This document shows positions 2,796 to 12,693 of a stretch of DNA of 64,000 bases, one piece after another; within the stretch, counting starts at the first letter, position 1, and every line of letters begins with the position of its first letter. The notes under the pieces were generated by a model. It did not search any database, was not told where the DNA came from, and worked only from the letters and a program-made list of their open reading frames with translations. The translations under genes were made by a program, and so were the position numbers. The stretch covers positions 1 through 64,000 of the forward strand of contig CAJVWI010000005.1 of assembly GCA_913009655.1 (NCBI GenBank). Reading direction: 5' to 3'. Source of the DNA: an uncultured Cryomorphaceae bacterium. Its GTDB lineage: Bacteria; Bacteroidota; Bacteroidia; Flavobacteriales; Schleiferiaceae.

Positions 2796-3344
2796 TCACT
2801 TATTTGGCTTGTTGGATAATCTTATTTTTTTGTAGAGCCTAATGCTCAACATCAATAATAGAGAAATCAGAATTAAACCAACGACCCCCCAAATCCAATT
2901 TATCGCACTTTTTAAGGTCACTAAAAAGACAACTGAAAATAAGATAATTGTAGCCAATTCATTCCATATCCTTAGATAAAATGAGCTGTATGGGATCTTA
3001 TTATTTTGAAGTTGGTTATATATTTTATGGCACTTAAAATGATAGACATACAGAACAAAAACAAATGATAATTTCACTAACATCCATGGTTGCTCTAGGT
3101 AAGCTGGATTATACCATAACATTAAAAATCCAAATAAGCTTGTTAAAACAGCGGATGGCCAGGTTATTATAAACCACAACCGTTTTTCCATTAGCTTGTA
3201 TTGGGTCTGCAGTATCTTCTTTGCAACTGGTTCCATTTGATCGGCTTCCGAATGATAAATAAATAGTCTAACAATATAAAATAACCCTGCGAACCAGGTG
3301 ACTACGAAAATAATATGAAGGGCTTTTATGTATAAAAAATCCAT
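2796..3344 (-). CDS. hemJ: Protoporphyrinogen IX oxidase HemJ
   Basis: HemJ oxidises protoporphyrinogen IX to protoporphyrin IX in the inner membrane, the next-to-last step of heme synthesis. The 182-residue protein has the usual size. It shows the family signature KALHIIFVVTWFAGLFYIVRL near the N-terminus, with the conserved histidine H10, and WPSAVLTSLFG in the next helix, with four to five membrane helices in all. No hemG or hemY is present in the window, so this is the likely enzyme of the pathway. It follows hemH by 51 bp on the same strand, matching metabolic order (its product is the ferrochelatase substrate). Confidence 0.93.
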   Translation of the reverse strand: MDFLYIKALHIIFVVTWFAGLFYIVRLFIYHSEADQMEPVAKKILQTQYKLMEKRLWFIITWPSAVLTSLFGFLMLWYNPAYLEQPWMLVKLSFVFVLYVYHFKCHKIYNQLQNNKIPYSSFYLRIWNELATIILFSVVFLVTLKSAINWIWGVVGLILISLLLMLSIRLYKKIRLSNKPNK

Positions 3345-3395
3345 AATATTTATTTAAAAATTGACACTTTTTAGAGATTTAATTTCATTTTACTT

Positions 3396-4424
3396 TTAGT
3401 ATGCTTTAGGCTTTTTAAAATCAGCTATCCATCCTGCAATAACATCTACCCATTCATCATTGTCATTGATGCAGGGTATCGTGTGAAACTCTTTACCTCC
3501 AGATTCTAAAAACTCTTCTTTTCCTTCCATTGCGATTTCTTCTAAAGTTTCAAGGCAGTCTGAGACGAAAGCTGGTGTTACAATAGCAAGTTTTTCAATT
3601 CCATCCTTTTCAGCTTTTTCGACAATAGTTTTGGCAGTGTAGGGTTGTAGCCATGGATTTGCTCCCAAGCGAGATTGAAATGAAGTTGAGACTTTTTTCC
3701 TGTCTAAGTTTAGCTCAGAGATTACATTTTCCGTTGTAGAAAGACATTGATGGCGATAACAGAATTCATGTGCTTTGGATGGCGTGTTGCAACAACTTCC
3801 ATCTATTTTACAATGACTTTTTGTAACGTCTGATTTATATATATGTCGTTCGGGAATTCCATGGTATGAGAATAGTAGATGATCATAGTCTATATTTTTC
3901 AAATTCTCTTTGATGCTATTTGACAATGCTTTTACATATTCGGGTTTATTATAAAAAGCTGGAATATGAGTTATTTTCATTTCTGGGAAATAATTACGTC
4001 GCAGTTCCTCTGATAAAACCAATATGGTTTCAGTTGTAGCCATTGCAAACTGAGGATATAATGGAATGACAAGAACTTCCTTAACTCCTTTTTCATACAA
4101 TTCACTTAAACCAGTTTTCATGGAAGGGTTTCCGTAACGCATTGACAATGCAACTGGGATATCTGTTTTCTTTATTACTTTTTGGTAAAGTCGCTTGGAT
4201 AGAACAATTAATGGAGATCCTTCCTTCCACCAGATTTTTTTGTAGGCTGCAGCAGACTTTTTAGGGCGAGTATTTAGGATAATGCCTTTCACTAAGAATG
4301 TTCTTAGCCAAAGAGGAAGATCTATTACGCGCTCATCCATTAAAAATTCACCCAAGTATTTTTTTACATCTTTTGGATCGATGCTGTCGGGAGAACCCAG
4401 ATTAACTATTAAAACTCCTTTCAT
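3396..4424 (-). CDS. hemH: Ferrochelatase
   Basis: Inserts ferrous iron into protoporphyrin IX, the last step of protoheme synthesis. The 342-residue protein begins with the canonical GVLIVNLGSPDS. It has the catalytic histidine in FSYHGIPERH (H188) and the acidic active-site segment SDCLETLEEIAMEG (E292). Between residues 205 and 227 it carries five cysteines (C205, C211, C212, C222, C227) in an insertion common in Bacteroidota ferrochelatases, reminiscent of the Fe-S-ligating cysteines of some other ferrochelatases. The gene lies 41 bp downstream of the AraC-type regulator and probably shares its transcript. Confidence 0.96.
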   Translation of the reverse strand: MKGVLIVNLGSPDSIDPKDVKKYLGEFLMDERVIDLPLWLRTFLVKGIILNTRPKKSAAAYKKIWWKEGSPLIVLSKRLYQKVIKKTDIPVALSMRYGNPSMKTGLSELYEKGVKEVLVIPLYPQFAMATTETILVLSEELRRNYFPEMKITHIPAFYNKPEYVKALSNSIKENLKNIDYDHLLFSYHGIPERHIYKSDVTKSHCKIDGSCCNTPSKAHEFCYRHQCLSTTENVISELNLDRKKVSTSFQSRLGANPWLQPYTAKTIVEKAEKDGIEKLAIVTPAFVSDCLETLEEIAMEGKEEFLESGGKEFHTIPCINDNDEWVDVIAGWIADFKKPKAY

Positions 4425-4465
4425 TTATGAAATTGTTATTGTTAAATATTTCCACGTCATAATTG

Positions 4466-5356
4466 TTAGCTTTGAAGGGAAAGAACATATTGTTTTGGAG
4501 TAGTTCCAAATTTCTTTTTGAAAGCGGCTATAAAATGACTCGCCATACTATAACCTATTTTTAAGCCAACCTCATTAACATTAAACTGATTACTCTCGAG
4601 CATGATTCTGGCTTGTTCCATCTTATAATCGAATAAAAAACTATAAACTGTATCCCCATATATCTGCTTAAAGCCTTCTTTGAGTTTTTTTAGACTCAAA
4701 CCAATTTCATTAGCCAGTTCATTTAGGCTTGGTGGGTTTGAGATTCTAGAAATTATGATGTCTTTAGCTTTTCTTATTTTTAAGATGTCCCCTTCATCAA
4801 CAAGAAAGGGACAATACTCTCCATCTGAAATCTTATCTTTTTCAAAGTGTAAACTCAATAGTTCATAAATTTTCCCTTTGAGATACAAATCACGGGTAGG
4901 GCTGTCTGTTTTTGAGTTAAGTAATTGCTGCAGAACATTTAAGACCGACGGCTTTATCGTACTGTCATCATAAAACTTTCTATTACTATTCTCTTCCGAT
5001 AGAAAAGGAATATAGTTTGCCTCTTTAGAGAACAATGAATGCAGTTTTTTTATAGAAACAAGTATAGAAATTAAATCCCCTTGGCCAGGCATTTCCAGAC
5101 GAATTGGGAGATTTTCCATCGGGTTATAGAGTAAAACGGAATGTTTGTTTAAAACATTGAAGACATAATTCCCATTATTGAATATGAAACTTGCGTTACC
5201 CTTTAAGCAAAAATGTAATTGAATAAAGGAGCTTTCAACATTGCGCTCAAAAATAACTTTTTCATTGTCATCATTTTGAAAATGAAGTAGATGAAATCCA
5301 TTATCTAAGTTGGTTTCTTGGAAAGTACTTCCTGCGACATTTTTTGACATATTCAA
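4466..5356 (-). CDS. AraC-family transcriptional regulator of the heme block
   Basis: A 296-residue regulator. The C-terminal 100 residues are a double helix-turn-helix: first unit at about residues 208-235 (SLNELANEIGLSLKKLKEGF), second unit ending SHFIAAFKKKFGTTPKQY, the AraC signature. The N-terminal 180 residues are unlike the sugar-binding cupins I know and presumably sense a signal; no obvious metal motif is visible. It is transcribed divergently from hemA and lies directly upstream of hemH, so it is placed to control both halves of the heme block. The 10-base repeats at 5513-5543 are the probable target. Ligand unknown; a pathway intermediate, heme or iron is inference. Confidence 0.9.
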   Translation of the reverse strand: MNMSKNVAGSTFQETNLDNGFHLLHFQNDDNEKVIFERNVESSFIQLHFCLKGNASFIFNNGNYVFNVLNKHSVLLYNPMENLPIRLEMPGQGDLISILVSIKKLHSLFSKEANYIPFLSEENSNRKFYDDSTIKPSVLNVLQQLLNSKTDSPTRDLYLKGKIYELLSLHFEKDKISDGEYCPFLVDEGDILKIRKAKDIIISRISNPPSLNELANEIGLSLKKLKEGFKQIYGDTVYSFLFDYKMEQARIMLESNQFNVNEVGLKIGYSMASHFIAAFKKKFGTTPKQYVLSLQS

Positions 5357-5512
5357 ATTTTCTGTATCAAAGTTGTTTCTATAAATATCTTATTTAGAAT
5401 AGTTCTAGATAGAAAGAATTAAAACCCATGCCCCGCCTGAACTAATTAAGAATCACAATTTTTTTTCGTGTTAGTTTAAAATCAATTTAACTTCTTCAAA
5501 ATTATGAACAAA

Positions 5513-5543
5513 AAGCGACATTAAAAGTTCTTTAAGCGACATT
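5513..5543 (+). promoter_or_regulatory. Tandem AraC-type operator before hemA
   Basis: AAGCGACATT occurs at 5513-5522 and identically at 5534-5543. The spacing is exactly 21 bp, two helical turns, in direct orientation, which is the classical arrangement of AraC half-sites. The second copy ends 19 bp before a perfect -7 box, so it occupies the place of the -33 element. A divergent araC-family gene starts 157 bp away. Binding is inferred, not shown. Confidence 0.65.
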
Positions 5544-5570
5544 TATTTTGTTTTGGCGGTTATATTTTTG
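5540..5570 (+). promoter_or_regulatory. hemA operon promoter
   Basis: TATTTTTG at 5563-5570 fits the Bacteroidetes -7 consensus TAnnTTTG. The -33 position, 19 bp upstream at 5540-5543, reads CATT instead of TTTG and is part of the second operator half-site. This is what one expects of a promoter that needs an activator. The leader before the hemA ATG at 5595 would be about 20 nt. Confidence 0.6.
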
Positions 5571-5594
5571 TCATCGATAAATTAATAGAGCTAA

Positions 5595-6851
5595 ATGAGT
5601 CTGTCTAATAAGCACATGAATCTTTATTGTATTGGCACCAACTTTAAGAAAGCTGATGCTTCTATTCGTGGAAAGTTTTCACTTTCCAGATTGGCTCAGT
5701 CTGCACTGCTGAAAGAAGCTAAGCAACAGGGTATCCAAGGAATATTTGTTCTATCTACTTGTAATCGAACAGAAATAACAGGTTTTGCTGAGCGTTCTTC
5801 TGATATAATTGGATTGTTATGTAAGTATTCCAAGGGATCAATTGATGAATTTGTAAAAATATCTTGTGTCCTAAAGAATGAAGATGCAGTTCGTCATCTT
5901 TTTCGTTTAGGTAGCGGCTTGGAAAGTCAAATTTTAGGCGATTATGAAATTATAGGGCAGCTCCGTAACGCTTTCAAGCATGCGAAAATTGAAGGAACAA
6001 CTAACGCTTATTTCGAGCGTCTTGTAAATAGCGTTACTCAAGCGAGCAAGCAAGTAAAAAATGAGACTAAACTAAGTTCGGGGACGACATCTGTTTCCTA
6101 CGCTGCTGTTCAATTCTTAAAAGAGAATTATCCTGATTATAATTCGAAGAATATTCTACTATTCGGGCTAGGGAAAATTGGAAAACATACATGTCAAAAT
6201 ATAGCTGAACATACTAGCAACAAGAGAGTTTCTTTGATTAATCGTTCTGAAAATAAGTTAGATGATATCAGAAATAAGTACTCATTTATCAGAAAAGCTG
6301 ATTTTAAAAATTTAGTGAGCGAGGTACGGAATACGGATGTATTAATAGTTTCTACTGGTTCAGATTCACCAACGATTACTTCAGAGCATATTTCAAAAGA
6401 TAAAGAGCTCATAATTCTCGATTTATCAATGCCTGCAAATGTTTCCTCAGAAGTTACAGGCATGGATAATGTCACTTTGGCTAATGTAGATATCCTTTCA
6501 AGGATAACTGATGAAACTTTACTCTCTCGTCAGGGCGAAGTTTTCCGAGCAGAAAGGATATTGGATAAGCATGAGACAGAATTTCACGAATGGTCTAATT
6601 ATCGGCGATTAACCCCGGCTTTAAATGCTTTAAAGGAATCGCTTCATCTTATAAAGCAAGATGAAATAAATTTTCATAAGAAGAAAACAGAGAACTTTAA
6701 TGAAAGTCAAGCGGAAATAATTTCATCAAGATTGATCCAAAAAATAACTTCACAATTTGCAAAGCACTTGAAGGACGAAAACACTTCAGTCAGTCAGAGT
6801 ATAGAGGTGATTTCGAAAGTGTTTGGCATAGCTCATGAGCAGAATAATTAA
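5595..6851 (+). CDS. hemA: Glutamyl-tRNA reductase
   Basis: First committed enzyme of C5 tetrapyrrole synthesis: reduces glutamyl-tRNA(Glu) to glutamate-1-semialdehyde with NADPH. The 418-residue protein has the catalytic cysteine in LSTCNRTEI (C56), the SQILGDYEI segment, the Rossmann motif LLFGLGKIGKHTC near residue 195, and a C-terminal dimerisation helix region. The first ATG gives a seven-residue lead before M8; M8 (MNLYCIGTNFK) is an alternative start that matches the usual family N-terminus. It heads the rightward heme operon behind an apparent activator-dependent promoter and overlaps the next gene by 17 bp. Confidence 0.96.
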   Translation: MSLSNKHMNLYCIGTNFKKADASIRGKFSLSRLAQSALLKEAKQQGIQGIFVLSTCNRTEITGFAERSSDIIGLLCKYSKGSIDEFVKISCVLKNEDAVRHLFRLGSGLESQILGDYEIIGQLRNAFKHAKIEGTTNAYFERLVNSVTQASKQVKNETKLSSGTTSVSYAAVQFLKENYPDYNSKNILLFGLGKIGKHTCQNIAEHTSNKRVSLINRSENKLDDIRNKYSFIRKADFKNLVSEVRNTDVLIVSTGSDSPTITSEHISKDKELIILDLSMPANVSSEVTGMDNVTLANVDILSRITDETLLSRQGEVFRAERILDKHETEFHEWSNYRRLTPALNALKESLHLIKQDEINFHKKKTENFNESQAEIISSRLIQKITSQFAKHLKDENTSVSQSIEVISKVFGIAHEQNN

Positions 6852-8421
6852 CATTGGTACCCGTAAAAGTAAGTTAGCCTTATGGCAGGCAAATGAGGTT
6901 AAAAGCCAGCTGGAAAATTATGGTTTTCAATGTAAAATTGTACCCATATTATCTCAAGGTGATCTAAACCTAGATAGACCTCTCCATGAGTTGGGCATTA
7001 CCGGAATTTTCACGAAAACCTTAGATATAGCATTATTAAATAAGGATATAGATGTTGCGGTGCATTCATTGAAGGATGTTCCTACAAAGCTTCCTGATGG
7101 AATTATTCAATCTGCTGTATTGGAAAGATCTGGCTTCAGTGATGTCTTTGTTATTAATGAAAAAAAAGACTTTGACATTAATTCTAAAACAATCATTGCA
7201 ACTGGTAGTTTAAGAAGAAGGGCTCAATGGCTTAATAAATATCCTCAAAGTCGTGTGATTGATCTCAGAGGAAACGTGAATACAAGACTGAAGAAGATAC
7301 AAGAAGGTAATTGTAATGGAGGGGTATTTGCAGAAGCTGGATTGGAACGATTGGGCATTAAGCCGAATAAGTCAATAACTCTGTCATGGATGGTTCCGGC
7401 ACCGGGTCAGGGTGTAATTATGCTTGCAGCCAGGGAAGACGACGATTTTATTAATAAGGCCTGTAATGTTCTAAATCATTTTAAAACTCAAGTTAGTTCA
7501 AGTATCGAAAGGGATTTCTTGAGAAAATTAGAAGGTGGATGTACCGCCCCGATTGGAGCTTTAGCCCAAATCGATAATATTTCTGAAAATATCAAATTTC
7601 AAGGAATCCTTTTATCTCGTGATGGCATTAGTAAGCTTACCGTAGAGATGACATGTGAACTTAAAAAATATAAATCTTTAGGTGATAAATGTGCCACGAT
7701 AATCCTAAATAAAGGAGGTAAAGATTTGATTGAAAAAGATCAAAAGGCAGGATCAAAATATACATTTTACTCCACAAAAAAATTATCACTCAAACAAAAG
7801 AATGAGTTACCTGAAAATATTAGCTTTAAGGAAAACGACTTTATTAATATTAGTTTTCTAGATATCCAAGAAGGAATATTAAAAAAGAAAATAAAGAACG
7901 TTATAATAACCAGCAAAAATTCGGTAGAATCAATATTACGCTCCTCAAAATCTATAAATATAGATTTTGAAAATATATTTTGCGTTGGCTTAAAAACAAA
8001 AGATCTTATCGAAGAGAATATAGGTAAAGTGAATCTCTGGAGAGAAAACTCAAAAGAATTGGCATCCGAACTAGCTCGAATTATTCCTGGTCAGGCAGTA
8101 ACTTATTTTTGCAGTGATATGCGGTTAGATACACTGCCTGCATTGCTTAGAGAAAATAGCATAGCAATTGAAGAGATAAAATCATACTCAACTATATTTG
8201 CTCCATCTCCTTTAAATCAAAAATTCTCTGCTGTTTTGTTTTTTAGCCCTTCAGCTGTTAAAAGCTTTATGGAAGTCAATGAGGCTATAGGTTCAGCGCT
8301 CTGTATCGGAGAGGAAACTGCATCTGAGGCTAAAAATTACTTTAAAGATGTCCAGACAGCAGACTCTCCAAATACTTCAAGTCTTTTGGAATTAGTAAGC
8401 TTGAATTTTAGAAAAAATTAA
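6835..8421 (+). CDS. hemCD: Fused hydroxymethylbilane synthase / uroporphyrinogen-III synthase
   Basis: Two consecutive heme enzymes in one 528-residue chain. Residues 1-about 300 are HemC (porphobilinogen deaminase): catalytic D81 in VAVHSLKDVPT, the arginine-rich TGSLRRRAQWL, and the dipyrromethane-cofactor cysteine C236 in EGGCTAPIGA. Residues about 307-528 are HemD: ITSKNSVES, FFSPSAVKSF and CIGEETASEAK match the TS-x-N-x-V and I-G-x-x-T-A motifs of uroporphyrinogen-III synthases. No stop or frameshift lies between them. In most bacteria these are separate genes. A fusion could pass the unstable hydroxymethylbilane directly to the closing enzyme. Overlaps hemA by 17 bp. Confidence 0.92.
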   Translation: MSRIINIGTRKSKLALWQANEVKSQLENYGFQCKIVPILSQGDLNLDRPLHELGITGIFTKTLDIALLNKDIDVAVHSLKDVPTKLPDGIIQSAVLERSGFSDVFVINEKKDFDINSKTIIATGSLRRRAQWLNKYPQSRVIDLRGNVNTRLKKIQEGNCNGGVFAEAGLERLGIKPNKSITLSWMVPAPGQGVIMLAAREDDDFINKACNVLNHFKTQVSSSIERDFLRKLEGGCTAPIGALAQIDNISENIKFQGILLSRDGISKLTVEMTCELKKYKSLGDKCATIILNKGGKDLIEKDQKAGSKYTFYSTKKLSLKQKNELPENISFKENDFINISFLDIQEGILKKKIKNVIITSKNSVESILRSSKSINIDFENIFCVGLKTKDLIEENIGKVNLWRENSKELASELARIIPGQAVTYFCSDMRLDTLPALLRENSIAIEEIKSYSTIFAPSPLNQKFSAVLFFSPSAVKSFMEVNEAIGSALCIGEETASEAKNYFKDVQTADSPNTSSLLELVSLNFRKN

Positions 8422-8472
8422 CAACATCGTTATTTTGATTTTTTGCATTGATGATAATTAAAAAAAGCAATT

Positions 8473-9444
8473 ATGTTTCGTACAAGAAGACTTAGAAAAA
8501 AAGAGGGGATAAGACGGTTAGTTCAGGAAACTAAATTATCTGTTGATGATTTTATTTATCCCTTGTTTATTGAGGAAGGAAAAAATATTGAAACAGAAAT
8601 TTCATCAATGCCAGGGATTAAAAGATTTTCGATAGACAGAATATCGAAGGAATTAGATGAGTTGGTTGATTTAAAAATATCGTCTGTTCTTTTATTTGGA
8701 ATTCCTGCAAGAAAAGATGAAGAAGGAACCCAGACTTGGAATGAAAATGGTATTATTCAAGAAGCGATTCGTTATATAAAAATACATTATCCTAAACTTT
8801 ACATAATAACGGATGTTTGTTTTTGCGAGTATACCTCACATGGGCACTGTGGTGTTATCATGGATAATGATGTTGATAATGATTCGACATTATTAAATAT
8901 TTCAAAGCAAGTTCTTTCTCATGCAAATGCCGGAGCTGATATGGTAGCTCCATCAGGGATGATGGACGGGTCTATTGAAAATATTCGTCAAACTTTAGAT
9001 AATAATGGATATTCCAATTTGCCAATTATGGGATATTCGGTAAAGTATTCATCATCTTTCTATGGCCCATTTAGAGAGGCTGCAGGGTCAACTCCTGGAT
9101 TTGGGAATAGAAAGACTTATCAAATGGATCCCTCAAATAGGCATGAAGCTCTAAGAGAAGCGAAATACGATAATCAAGAAGGGGCAGACATCTTAATGGT
9201 GAAACCTGCTTTGGCATATCTAGATATTATTCGAGATTTAAAAAACGCTTATGATCTTCCCATAGCTTGTTATAATGTTAGCGGTGAATATTCAATGATA
9301 AAAGCTGCAGCACAAAATGGATGGATTGATGGTGATATGGTAATGATGGAAACTCTCCTTTCGATGAAAAGGGCAGGAGCAGACATTATAATAACATATT
9401 TTGCAAAAGAAGCTGCAAGAATATTAGACTCCAATAATATCTAG
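8473..9444 (+). CDS. hemB: Porphobilinogen synthase (5-aminolevulinate dehydratase)
   Basis: Condenses two 5-aminolevulinate molecules to porphobilinogen. The 323-residue protein has full family length. Both Schiff-base lysines are present: K191 in GYSVKYSS and K244 in [11 protein letters not shown]. The metal site is the cysteine type, C116, C118 and C126 in [14 protein letters not shown], which indicates a zinc-dependent enzyme rather than the aspartate-rich magnesium form. Lies 51 bp after hemCD and 3 bp before hemL in the same operon. Confidence 0.97.
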
Positions 9445-9447
9445 GTT

Positions 9448-10740
9448 GTGAACTTTAATAAATCCCAAGAATTATATAAACAAGGCCTTGAGCATCTTGT
9501 AGGAGCAGTTAATTCTCCCGTGAGAGCTTTCTCTTCTGTTGGAGGAAACCCTCTTTTTATTAAAAAGGCAAAAGGAAGTAAAATTATAGATGTTGATGGG
9601 AATAGGTATATCGACTTAGTGCTATCCTATGGGCCAATGATTCTAGGACATCGTCATAGGAAAGTGGAGAGGGCTATTTCAAAATCTTTGAAATATGGTT
9701 ACACATTTGGAGCATCTACTGAGAATGAAATAAAATTAGCAGAGATCGTTTGTAGTGCTTTTCCAGCAATGGATAAGGTAAGGTTTGTGAACTCAGGAAC
9801 GGAAGCTGTAATAAGCGGAATTAGGCTTGCGAGAGCCTTTACAGGGAGAGATAAGATTATCAAATTCTCTGGATGCTATCATGGTCATCAAGATGCCCTT
9901 TTGGTTGCCGCAGGTTCAGGTCTTGCTACACTGAGTCTTCCTGGGAGTAAAGGAGTTCCTGATGCGGCCGTAGAAAATACATTGATATCTACCTACAATA
10001 ATATAGAGAGTGTAAAGGAGCATTTTAAGAAACACAATGATATTGCAGGAGTTATAATAGAGCCTGTAGGAGGAAACATGGGTGTGGTCATTCCTCAGGG
10101 TAGTTTCTTAGAAGAATTGAAGCAATTAACTCTTCAAAACGGTGCTCTTCTTATCGCGGATGAGGTAATGACAGGTTTTCGTTCAAAGTTCGGCGGGGCT
10201 CAAGAATTATTTAATGTCGAAGCAGACATAACATGTTTAGGGAAAGTTATAGGTGGAGGTTTTCCTGTTGGTGCATATGGAGCGAGAAATGAGATAATGG
10301 AAATGGTCGCGCCTTTAGGGGAAATGTATCAAGCGGGAACCCTATCAGGAAATCCCATAGCCATGGCAGCGGGTATATCAACGTTAAATGAGTTGAAAAA
10401 ACAAAATCCGTATGAAACTTTTGAGAAAGTAGCTGGAAAAATTCAATATTTCTTGGAAAATAGCGCAAAAAAATATGGAGTGGAGATTACGGTGAATAGA
10501 TTTGGATCAATGATGAACCCATTCTTTACGTGTGAAAAAGTAACTAATTTTCAAGAAGCTCAGACAACAAATACCGATAAATTCGCAATCTTTTTTTGGG
10601 AGATGATTAGAAATGGTGTCTTTCTTCCTCCATCTCAATTCGAAGCTTGGTTTCTGTCATCTGCATTGACAAAAAGAGATATTAAAAATTTAGAAATAGC
10701 TATAGATAGATCAATGAAAGCAGTATCAAAAAGTATATAA
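9448..10740 (+). CDS. hemL: Glutamate-1-semialdehyde 2,1-aminomutase
   Basis: Converts glutamate-1-semialdehyde to 5-aminolevulinate, completing the C5 entry with HemA. The 430-residue PLP enzyme starts with GTG three bases after the hemB stop; no ATG is available near. The PLP lysine is K266 in [14 protein letters not shown], the aspartate is in [12 protein letters not shown], and NSGTEA (residues 115-120) and YHGHQD are the other cofactor and substrate segments. Stop and the hemE start overlap by one base (TAATG), indicating translational coupling. Confidence 0.97.
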
Positions 10741-11765
10741 TGTTAAAAAACGATTTATTCCTACGTGCCTTAAAAGGTCAAAATGTAGCACGCCCACCAG
10801 TATGGATGATGCGCCAGGCAGGAAGGTACTTGCCTGAATTCATGGAAATCAAAAAAAAATATGATTTTTTCACAAGATGCAGGACACCAGAACTAGCATC
10901 TGAAATCACGATTCAGCCCATTCGTAGGTTCGGCATGGATGCAGCTGTATTATTTTCGGATATTTTAGTTATTCCGCAAGCTATGAATGTTGAGGTTCAA
11001 ATGAAGCCTGATTTTGGTCCTTATTTACCTAAACCTATAAGGACTCAAAGGGATGTTGATAATGTTATAGTCCCAGATATTCATTCAGAATTGAATTATG
11101 TTTATCAAGCTATACAAGCGTCAAAAGAAAAGTTAGACAATGAGATTCCATTGATAGGTTTTGCAGGATCTCCATGGACACTTTTATGCTATATGGTTCA
11201 AGGACAAGGGTCAAAGACTTTCGATAAAGCCAAAGAGTTTTGTTTTACAAACCCTTCTGGCGCCCATGAGCTACTCCAAAAATTAACGGATACGACAATT
11301 GAATACTTGAAAGCAAAGATAAATGCAGGAGTTGATGCTGTTCAGATTTTTGACTCATGGGGAGGGTTACTATCCCCAACAGATTATCAGGAGTTTTCGT
11401 GGAAGTATATTCAGCAAATTATTGATGCAGTAAAAAATCATGCTCCCATAATTGTTTTTGGAAAAGGGTGCTGGTTTGCACTAGGAGAAATGTCGAAGTC
11501 TGGAGCCTCTGCGTTAGGTGTAGATTGGACATGCTCAGCGAGAAATGCAAGATATCTATCTGGCGGTAATATCACATTACAGGGAAATCTTGATCCTTCG
11601 AGGTTATTTTCTTCTCCATCTGATATAAAAAAAATGGTAAATGAAATGATTAACGATTTTGGAAAAGACAAATATATTGTGAATCTTGGACATGGAATTT
11701 TACCGAATATCCCATTGGATAATGTTAAAGCATTTATTGACGCTGTTAAAGAATATAAAAGCTAA
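10740..11765 (+). CDS. hemE: Uroporphyrinogen decarboxylase
   Basis: Removes four carboxyl groups from uroporphyrinogen III to give coproporphyrinogen III. The 341-residue protein has the two signatures [16 protein letters not shown] near the N-terminus (active-site arginine) and [16 protein letters not shown] in the middle, plus the catalytic aspartate region [11 protein letters not shown] and the terminal LGHGILP. It shares one base with the end of hemL. Confidence 0.97.
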
Positions 11766-11787
11766 AATTGATTTTTTACTTTGAGCT

Positions 11788-12693
11788 ATGAAAACTCAGT
11801 TTCATAATTATATTATTGAATTACAAGACCACATATCTTCTAAACTTGAGGAAGTAGATGGAAAAGGTCAATTTCATGAAGATTCATGGGAAAGGCCTGG
11901 CGGAGGTGGAGGAAGAACACGCGTACTAGAAGATGGTGATGTTTTTGAAAAAGCTGGAGTAAATATCTCTGCAATTAATGGCTCTTTACCGGAGGCTTTA
12001 AAGAAGCAATTTAAAGTTGAGGAAGGAGATTTCTTTGCCTGTGGACTGAGTATAGTGATTCATCCAAAGAACCCCTTTGCGCCGACAGTTCACGCAAATT
12101 GGAGATATTTTGAAATGTACAATACTGAAGGTGAAATTATCAGTCAATGGTTTGGAGGTGGACAGGATCTAACGCCATATTATTTTTTTAAGGATGATGT
12201 CATCCATTTTCATGAAAATTGTAAGAAAGTATGCGATAAACACAGTTCAGATTTTTACAATGAATTTAAAAAGTCCTGCGATGAATACTTTTGGAATACT
12301 CATCGAAATGAGTTAAGGGGGGTAGGAGGTCTATTCTTTGACTATTTAAAAGAAACTAATGAGTTCTCGATTGAAGATAGGTTTAATTTCGTGTGCGAGG
12401 TTGGAAATAATTTTTTAGAGAGTTATCTACCAATTCTAAAGATCAGGAAGCACACTTCGTTTTCTAAAGAAAATAGATTGTGGCAAGAGATTCGAAGAGG
12501 CCGTTATGTCGAATTCAATTTGGTTCATGATCGGGGAACGTTATTCGGTTTAAAAACCAACGGTAGAATTGAAAGCATACTCATGAGTCTTCCTCCGAAG
12601 GTTCAGTGGAGGTATGACTACTCCCCAGAAATAGGAAGTAAAGAGGCAGAGTTATTGGATATTCTATCAAAGCCAATAAATTGGTTAGAATAA
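11788..12693 (+). CDS. hemF: Oxygen-dependent coproporphyrinogen III oxidase
   Basis: Aerobic oxidative decarboxylation of coproporphyrinogen III to protoporphyrinogen IX, using O2. The 301-residue protein shows the family blocks GGGGGRTRVLEDGDVFEKAGVN, PFAPTVHANWRYFE, WFGGGQDLTPYY, HRNELRGVGGLFFDY and RRGRYVEFNLVHDRGT. It is the last gene of the operon, 22 bp after hemE. Only this O2-using form is present in the window (no hemN), consistent with an aerobic organism. No clear terminator follows; about 200 bp of apparently non-coding sequence does. Confidence 0.97.
   Translation: MKTQFHNYIIELQDHISSKLEEVDGKGQFHEDSWERPGGGGGRTRVLEDGDVFEKAGVNISAINGSLPEALKKQFKVEEGDFFACGLSIVIHPKNPFAPTVHANWRYFEMYNTEGEIISQWFGGGQDLTPYYFFKDDVIHFHENCKKVCDKHSSDFYNEFKKSCDEYFWNTHRNELRGVGGLFFDYLKETNEFSIEDRFNFVCEVGNNFLESYLPILKIRKHTSFSKENRLWQEIRRGRYVEFNLVHDRGTLFGLKTNGRIESILMSLPPKVQWRYDYSPEIGSKEAELLDILSKPINWLE

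Follow-up and report, generated by a model that had tools for sequence, protein, structure and literature searches.

A conserved candidate operator for an AraC-type regulator at the heme-synthesis promoter of flavobacteria

Which regulator controls the promoter of hemA in this genome, and does the AraC-type gene that lies divergently beside it take part in that control? In the window (the whole stretch of 64,000 nucleotides analysed here, from the genome called G000 below), this promoter is followed on the + strand, between 5595 and 12693, by hemA (glutamyl-tRNA reductase, 5595-6851; TIGR01035, 248.8 bits), a hemC-hemD fusion (6835-8421; Porphobil_deam and HEM4 in one frame), hemB (porphobilinogen synthase, 8473-9444), hemL (glutamate-1-semialdehyde aminomutase, 9448-10740; TIGR00713), hemE (uroporphyrinogen decarboxylase, 10740-11765; TIGR01464) and hemF (coproporphyrinogen oxidase, 11788-12693; PF01218, NF003727). 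On the - strand, the gene of an AraC-family regulator of 294 residues (4466-5350) precedes hemH (ferrochelatase, 3396-4424) and hemJ (protoporphyrinogen oxidase, 2796-3344), as the first-pass annotation of this DNA had noted. The assignment of HemJ rests on Pfam UPF0093, the NCBIfam model TIGR00701 being matched under its cut-off (114.9 vs 138.05 bits). Both strands combined hold a gene set leading from glutamyl-tRNA to heme.

Between the two divergent genes, the word AAGCGACATT is found twice on the + strand, at 5513-5522 and at 5534-5543. The two copies are identical and stand in a direct register of 21 bp. They are the only exact copies on either strand of the window, and in the whole genome an exact pair with a spacer of 8-14 bp is confined to this one place. 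Between the end of the second copy and a perfect -7 box, TATTTTTG at 5563-5570, lie 19 bp. The repeat, its 21-bp register and the distance to the -7 box had been read correctly at first. The start of araC had been placed 157 bp to the left of the repeat, which is right if translation begins at TTG 5356; the alignment favours ATG 5350, hence 163 bp. It had also been claimed that the second copy replaces the -33 element, no TTTG being present there. Indeed, no TTG precedes the -7 box of the window at a spacer of 17-23, and it is likewise missing in 79 of 81 loci (the window and the best 80 of the 566 titled loci described below) and present in the two others. However, only 1778 of 14141 random anchors (12.6%) carry a TTG at this place and about 87% do not. 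The 2/81 is at most a mild depletion and the absence alone shows little, so that we abandoned the missing -33 TTG as evidence. That the second copy stands in for the -33 element is plausible in view of the promoter's fixed geometry, and not because TTTG is absent.

With the regulator protein alone as a query, 566 titled loci were confirmed, of which the best 80 were used, a choice that under-samples distant cases; 78 of them are Flavobacteriaceae by title or genus and two are titled only Flavobacteriales. In 80/80 of these flavobacterial loci, araC is divergent from hemA and hemCD and the repeat is conserved beside the orthologous pair, the very point on which the first-pass annotation had staked its claim. 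Within the fetched flanks, some of them shortened, hemH is present in 68 and hemJ in 54 of these best 80 of 566. The 81 intergenic regions (the best 80 of 566 and the window) have in common a block of 46 bp, AAAAAAC-N4-AACGAYATTAAAAGTTCTTTTAGCGAYATTTTT, located at 5503-5548 on the + strand of the window, where its A-tract is only partly kept. The distal word is aligned to the conserved AACGAYATT, and the proximal one, at the place of the -33 element, to TAGCGAYATTTTT. In the information profile of the 81 loci, where position 0 is 5514 and the block runs from -11 to +34, the invariant positions are, among others, C(-5), C-G(2-3), A(6), C(16) and C-G(23-24). The pairs C(-5)/C(16), CG(2-3)/CG(23-24) and A(6)/A(27), the last with A27 kept at 93%, recur with the 21-bp period, so that each half-site probably measures about 20 bp, with the 10-mer as its core. 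The two 10-mers first described are thus both present, but the conserved element is longer (about 5503-5548) and its halves are non-identical in most relatives.

The position of this block with respect to the promoter is strictly kept, the -7 box starting 49 bp after position 0 in 81/81 loci (best 80 of 566 and the window). Over the same 81 loci, the distance from the -7 box to the hemA match takes 30 values between 22 and 67, and that from the start of the araC match to the operator takes 10. Some of these loci are close relatives; alignment A1, which also shows the block, was freed of near-copies and retains 60 loci plus the window, 61 rows in all. A pair of direct half-sites some 21 bp apart, which abuts or overlaps the core promoter at a constant distance, is the layout of a class II site. 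This class II-like placement, the halves 21 bp apart and the dedicated araC-hem unit agree with the first description of a paired operator with AraC half-site geometry. The repeat pair is a probable landing site of the neighbouring AraC-type regulator, strongly conserved in many flavobacteria.

A test of the spacing that presumes no sequence was also carried out: for each spacing between 12 and 40 bp, the 200 bp upstream of hemA were scored by their best self-match over 13 letters, at least two of the matched letters being G or C. Three groups of araC-linked loci were compared. In the 81 loci (best 80 of 566 and the window), spacing 21 has the top mean, 8.20 vs 4.58 (sd 0.76) for the other spacings. 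It is also on top in 24 loci of families f1, f4 and f10, 22 from the family of G000 and two from other families (8.88 vs 6.36, sd 0.61), and in 14 further loci of family f3, which may include species already in the 80 (7.93 vs 5.25, sd 0.80). Loci with at least 10 of 13 letters at spacing 21 number 8/81 in the first group (next 6, at 12), and 5/24 (next 3) and 2/14 (tied) in the two others, a small lead. Within the group of 24, the 21-bp repeat is visible as a group mean while single loci vary, one of them (L028) having 19 bp by eye. The half-sites of own-family loci are altered, for example to GGTATTAATTCTACTTCTAGAGGTATTTTT in L013, and are still 21 bp apart. In the hemA promoter of another locus, L242, three operator words in steps of about 21 bp, and not two, can be seen by eye.

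Among 296 genomes of the phylum, the regulator is found at E <= 1e-30 in 33, namely G000, 29 genomes of family f3 and three of family f22, which belongs to another order; no hemA was found in the regions taken from these three f22 genomes. A hemA gene is present in 47 genomes, of which 29 also have the regulator at E below 1e-50. The gene neighbourhood was read for one of the three regulators of the other order (L266, contig G284:C2, 2070-10400): this regulator, 39% identical, lies between HmuY/TonB-receptor genes and the FixG/FixH/FixP (cbb3-oxidase) genes.

The protein encoded by araC has the C-terminal double helix-turn-helix of the AraC/XylS family, with Pfam HTH_18 (1.9e-17) and HTH_AraC (7.5e-09) above their cut-offs, and its DNA-binding domain matches the fold of AraC (2k9s) with an rmsd of 1.6. 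The AlphaFold model (mean pLDDT 82, pTM 0.64) consists of a beta-rich N-domain, a helical part and the AraC helix-turn-helix. The N-domain, compared here with the cupin-like ligand/dimer domain of the AraC-like branch, has no Pfam match; it is made of nine beta strands and matches AraC (1xja) and BgaR at TM 0.46-0.59 (by target length). The fold matches are AraC-family proteins (ToxT, Rns, BgaR, AraC), those over the whole length having a low TM of about 0.3. The PchR/siderophore regulators may be considered as a parent family; no NCBIfam model reached its cut-off among the matches listed (25 of 29).

Residue conservation was counted in 112 of 114 aligned regulators (85 flavobacterial, 22 own-family and five genus copies, L028 and L029 being excluded). 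His104, Cys180, Pro181 and Leu183 are kept at 100% in each of the three groups (112/112), and the residue between the last two is Phe, rarely Tyr; a Cys-Pro motif followed by a hydrophobic residue, C180-P181-F/Y-L183, is thus present in all 112. It is also kept in the three regulators of the other order, in the G319 paralog and in the genus copies, which stand apart from heme genes. On the other hand, Cys-Pro is missing in 6/6 distant AraC paralogs and His104 in the 4/4 that could be judged. Cys180 borders a low-confidence linker in the AlphaFold model. Given the Cys-Pro motif and the heme genes nearby, heme sensing is a fair guess and no more, and Cys-Pro-Phe/Tyr-Leu together with His104 could be the heme-sensing motif.

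The first picture of this promoter region had overlooked a second element, placed before araC-hemH-hemJ. This is a Fur-box-like dyad, ATTTAGAATAGTTCTAGAT, at 5392-5410, 41 bp before the ATG of araC, which shares 17/19 letters with the better strand of the Fur box published for Riemerella anatipestifer. The latter, ATTTAGAATTATTCTAAAT, is likewise a 19-bp dyad near the start codon, within 100 bp of it, and is supported by gel shifts on four promoters; the 11 genes of Table 5 in that paper include two hypothetical proteins and, in contrast with the window, no AraC regulator and no gene of heme synthesis (PMC5609570). A match of at least 15/19 is found in 81/81 and of at least 16/19 in 79/81 regions (best 80 of 566 and the window), beginning 19-41 bp from the start of the araC match, whereas 2.3% of 1620 shuffled regions reach 15/19 and 0.24% reach 16/19. 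A Fur-like dyad also precedes feoA-feoB (Pfam FeoA, FeoB_N) in G000 (L197) and in Polaribacter porphyrae (L199). Because of its presence in 81/81 regions and before feoA-feoB, and of its match to the gel-shift-supported Riemerella box, araC-hemH-hemJ is probably under Fur control.

For the other regulators, the best Fur-like match is 16/19 at L266, nothing is above 12/19 in the stretch read at L267 and L268, and a genus copy (L112) has 14/19. The scan of five genomes with the Fur box gave other matches too, whose neighbouring genes were read in part; one is a fully matching dyad before a 116-residue protein without Pfam match in a Tenacibaculum genome (L187, 1501-1519). A conserved -7 box for araC was looked for and given up. 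The possible one in the window, CAACTTTG at 5368-5375 on the - strand, is weak, with one mismatch to TAnnTTTG; a perfect box exists in 2/81 regions (best 80 of 566 and the window), at no fixed place, and only the Fur-like box is fixed there.

We propose that these elements form a local, dedicated AraC-type transcription switch for heme synthesis, with class II activation, an input from Fur and a heme or porphyrin signal, and we consider this reading a likely one. The AraC-family protein (4466-5350) would bind the two direct half-sites of the block (about 5503-5548), which are separated by two helical turns. As the proximal half-site would cover the -33 region, the bound protein could contact RNA polymerase and, by class II activation, open a promoter whose only good core element would be the -7 box; the predicted output is the operon hemA-hemCD-hemB-hemL-hemE-hemF. 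The regulator itself would be made with hemH and hemJ from the promoter with the Fur-like box, so that iron status could set the amounts of regulator and ferrochelatase. The signal would most likely be heme or a porphyrin, perhaps perceived through the invariant Cys180-Pro181 and His104, which would provide end-product feedback. The first suggestion, of a regulator that switches on the entire pathway, fits the genes from hemA to hemF, but hemH and hemJ follow araC on the divergent side, where the Fur-like box sits.

In Escherichia coli, AraC at araI1-araI2 is a case of class II activation, with direct half-sites 21 bp apart and the proximal one against the core promoter. The present locus resembles it by its AraC-family helix-turn-helix, its 21-bp direct half-sites and its divergent regulator gene, and departs from it by serving heme synthesis and not sugar use, by its -7/-33 Bacteroidota promoter and by the Fur-like box at the regulator gene. 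The latter raises a question of sign. With Fur as a repressor of araC when iron abounds and AraC as an activator, the heme genes would go up in iron shortage, contrary to what is usual; one of the steps may have been given the wrong sign, or feedback by heme may dominate. One could assume from this that the regulator is mainly a repressor acting on the same operator, where it would cover the -33 region and keep hemA off until heme is low or a ligand releases it. The overlap of the proximal half-site with the core promoter would suit such a repressor and, with the Fur box, more regulator in iron shortage would mean less heme synthesis, which is physiologically sensible. However, the constant 49 bp to the -7 box is needed by an activator and less by a repressor; this geometry would favour class II activation, and AraC-family members are mostly activators, so that we hold repression to be rather unlikely.

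It could also be that the block is the site of some other regulator, araC being adjacent only through operon history. In 28 genomes besides G000, the distance between regulator and hemA is 212-310 bp in 26 and about 1.8 kb in two, and in L117, the one of these two that was read, hemA has kept the operator. The hemA genes of genomes without araC served as a control, 16 of 18 such genomes being included; G078 and G097, which belong to the same genus as two of the 16, were omitted. Spacing 21 is unremarkable in these 16 loci (6.88 vs 6.35, sd 0.49; highest at 16), but the control is weak, as 7/16 look operon-internal. In the nine others, spacing 21 ties with 36 for the highest value (7.0 vs 5.96, sd 0.64), which speaks weakly for another regulator. 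The weakness of this control led us to lower our confidence in the dedicated AraC-type switch slightly and to raise the competing readings by a very small step.

Against such another regulator stands a sequence-only model of the operator, R1, with which nine genomes were scanned. It gave one strong site per genome in 9/9, with 38-65 bits and always at the hemA promoter, the next best match having 23.3 bits. Four of the nine genomes (those of the window, L056, L096 and L101) had given R1 a row, so that the scores of these four are not independent, while their uniqueness is. A single strong site in each genome is not what a global regulator would lead one to expect, and suggests a dedicated switch, not a wider regulon. 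A wider regulon was indeed sought among the next matches (23.3, 22.1 and, at L220, 20.7 bits) and rejected: of the two inspected (23.3 and 22.1 bits), one lies between convergent genes and the other within a coding frame, and no heme gene could be recognised at either. Moreover, regulator and half-site letters vary together in the own family, and control of the block by another regulator appears to us very improbable.

Dinucleotide shuffles of the 244-bp intergenic region contain any identical 10-mer pair 10-40 bp apart in 40/1000 cases, identical 10-mers exactly 21 bp apart in 4/3000 and a pair with at least four G/C at 10-40 bp in 3/3000. These statistics are suggestive and not decisive alone, conservation being the stronger evidence. 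Although the intergenic DNA is A-T-rich, a chance or low-complexity origin of a repeat conserved over 81 loci (best 80 of 566 and the window) at a fixed distance to the -7 box is hardly credible.

In Alphaproteobacteria, Irr and the iron control element, a similar dyad, provide a Fur-superfamily control of heme synthesis. Irr acts directly on heme genes, whereas the Fur-like site of the window sits at the gene of the AraC regulator. As regards Bacteroidota, no described transcriptional regulator of heme synthesis was found among the top matches of our literature searches, and no described AraC regulator of hemA in the literature consulted; subscription papers and regulon databases lay outside its scope, and a prior description is possible. 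Within these limits, the initial remark that no such system is known as described in Bacteroidota agrees with our searches, and we regard the locus as a real, conserved regulatory unit of the AraC kind, undescribed as far as searched. The transcriptome map of Flavobacterium psychrophilum shares the TAnnTTTG -7 box with the window and reports that heme-synthesis enzymes are up under oxygen limitation together with the cbb3 oxidase; the term 'AraC' has 0 matches in its main text (PMC9723704).

The origin of the heme unit in this genome, whose araC-hem linkage had been recognized from the start, had escaped attention. Neither hemA nor hemE has a match in 21/21 same-genus assemblies (63-98% complete, 11 of them at least 90%). 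The flanks in the window match genus-mates at 81-93% in their best stretches on both sides, hence the contig belongs to the genome, and a mis-binned contig is an unlikely source of these Flavobacteriaceae-like heme genes. Trees were built from 50 AraC and 43 HemA rows, using 16 of the 80 titled loci (best 80 of 566); their roots were set at the midpoint, and a program warning concerned long branches in other parts of them. The AraC of the window falls inside the Tenacibaculum/Polaribacter group (100/99) and its HemA beside this group (100/99), whereas a second AraC of G000 clusters with part of its own family (99/96). Together with the lack of hemA in the 21 same-genus assemblies, the trees point to a probable transfer of the whole unit (2796-12693). 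The best reading is that heme block, regulator and operator were probably gained together from a donor of another family, similar to Tenacibaculum/Polaribacter, and that some relatives have lost them.

This would be an apparent case of a regulated pathway gained whole. Through Fur, the unit would link heme output to iron; it suggests an AraC branch that senses heme, and its operator offers a precise and cheap test in tractable flavobacteria, for which essentially one site per genome is predicted. A broader and more tentative hypothesis, possible but doubtful in our view, is that an as yet undescribed subfamily of Bacteroidota AraC proteins would bind and sense heme by Cys-Pro and His within a two-layer circuit with Fur, iron acting at the regulator gene and heme at the regulator protein. 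Such a circuit would serve heme synthesis, to which heme uptake and the cbb3 oxidase would be added in another order, and the self-contained unit of regulator, operator and nine enzyme functions could move and turn heme-dependent lineages into heme makers.

Some further observations concern the genus of G000. A hemJ 93% identical to that of the window is found in G011 (L182, contig G011:C71, 6130-6675), at the very end of its contig; this genome is 79% complete, and its heme block may be present but unassembled. A hemF tail of 38 residues stands at the syntenic place in G013 (L183, contig G013:C10, 1679-1792), and both could be what is left, or what was assembled, of a heme block. The second araC of G000 (L112, contig G000:C15, 3630-4547) is of own-family type, keeps Cys-Pro and has counterparts in many genus-mates, with no heme gene within the 14 kb read around it. 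Finally, a tRNA-Arg gene at 902-976 of the window, near the left side of the heme block, is a possible integration landmark.
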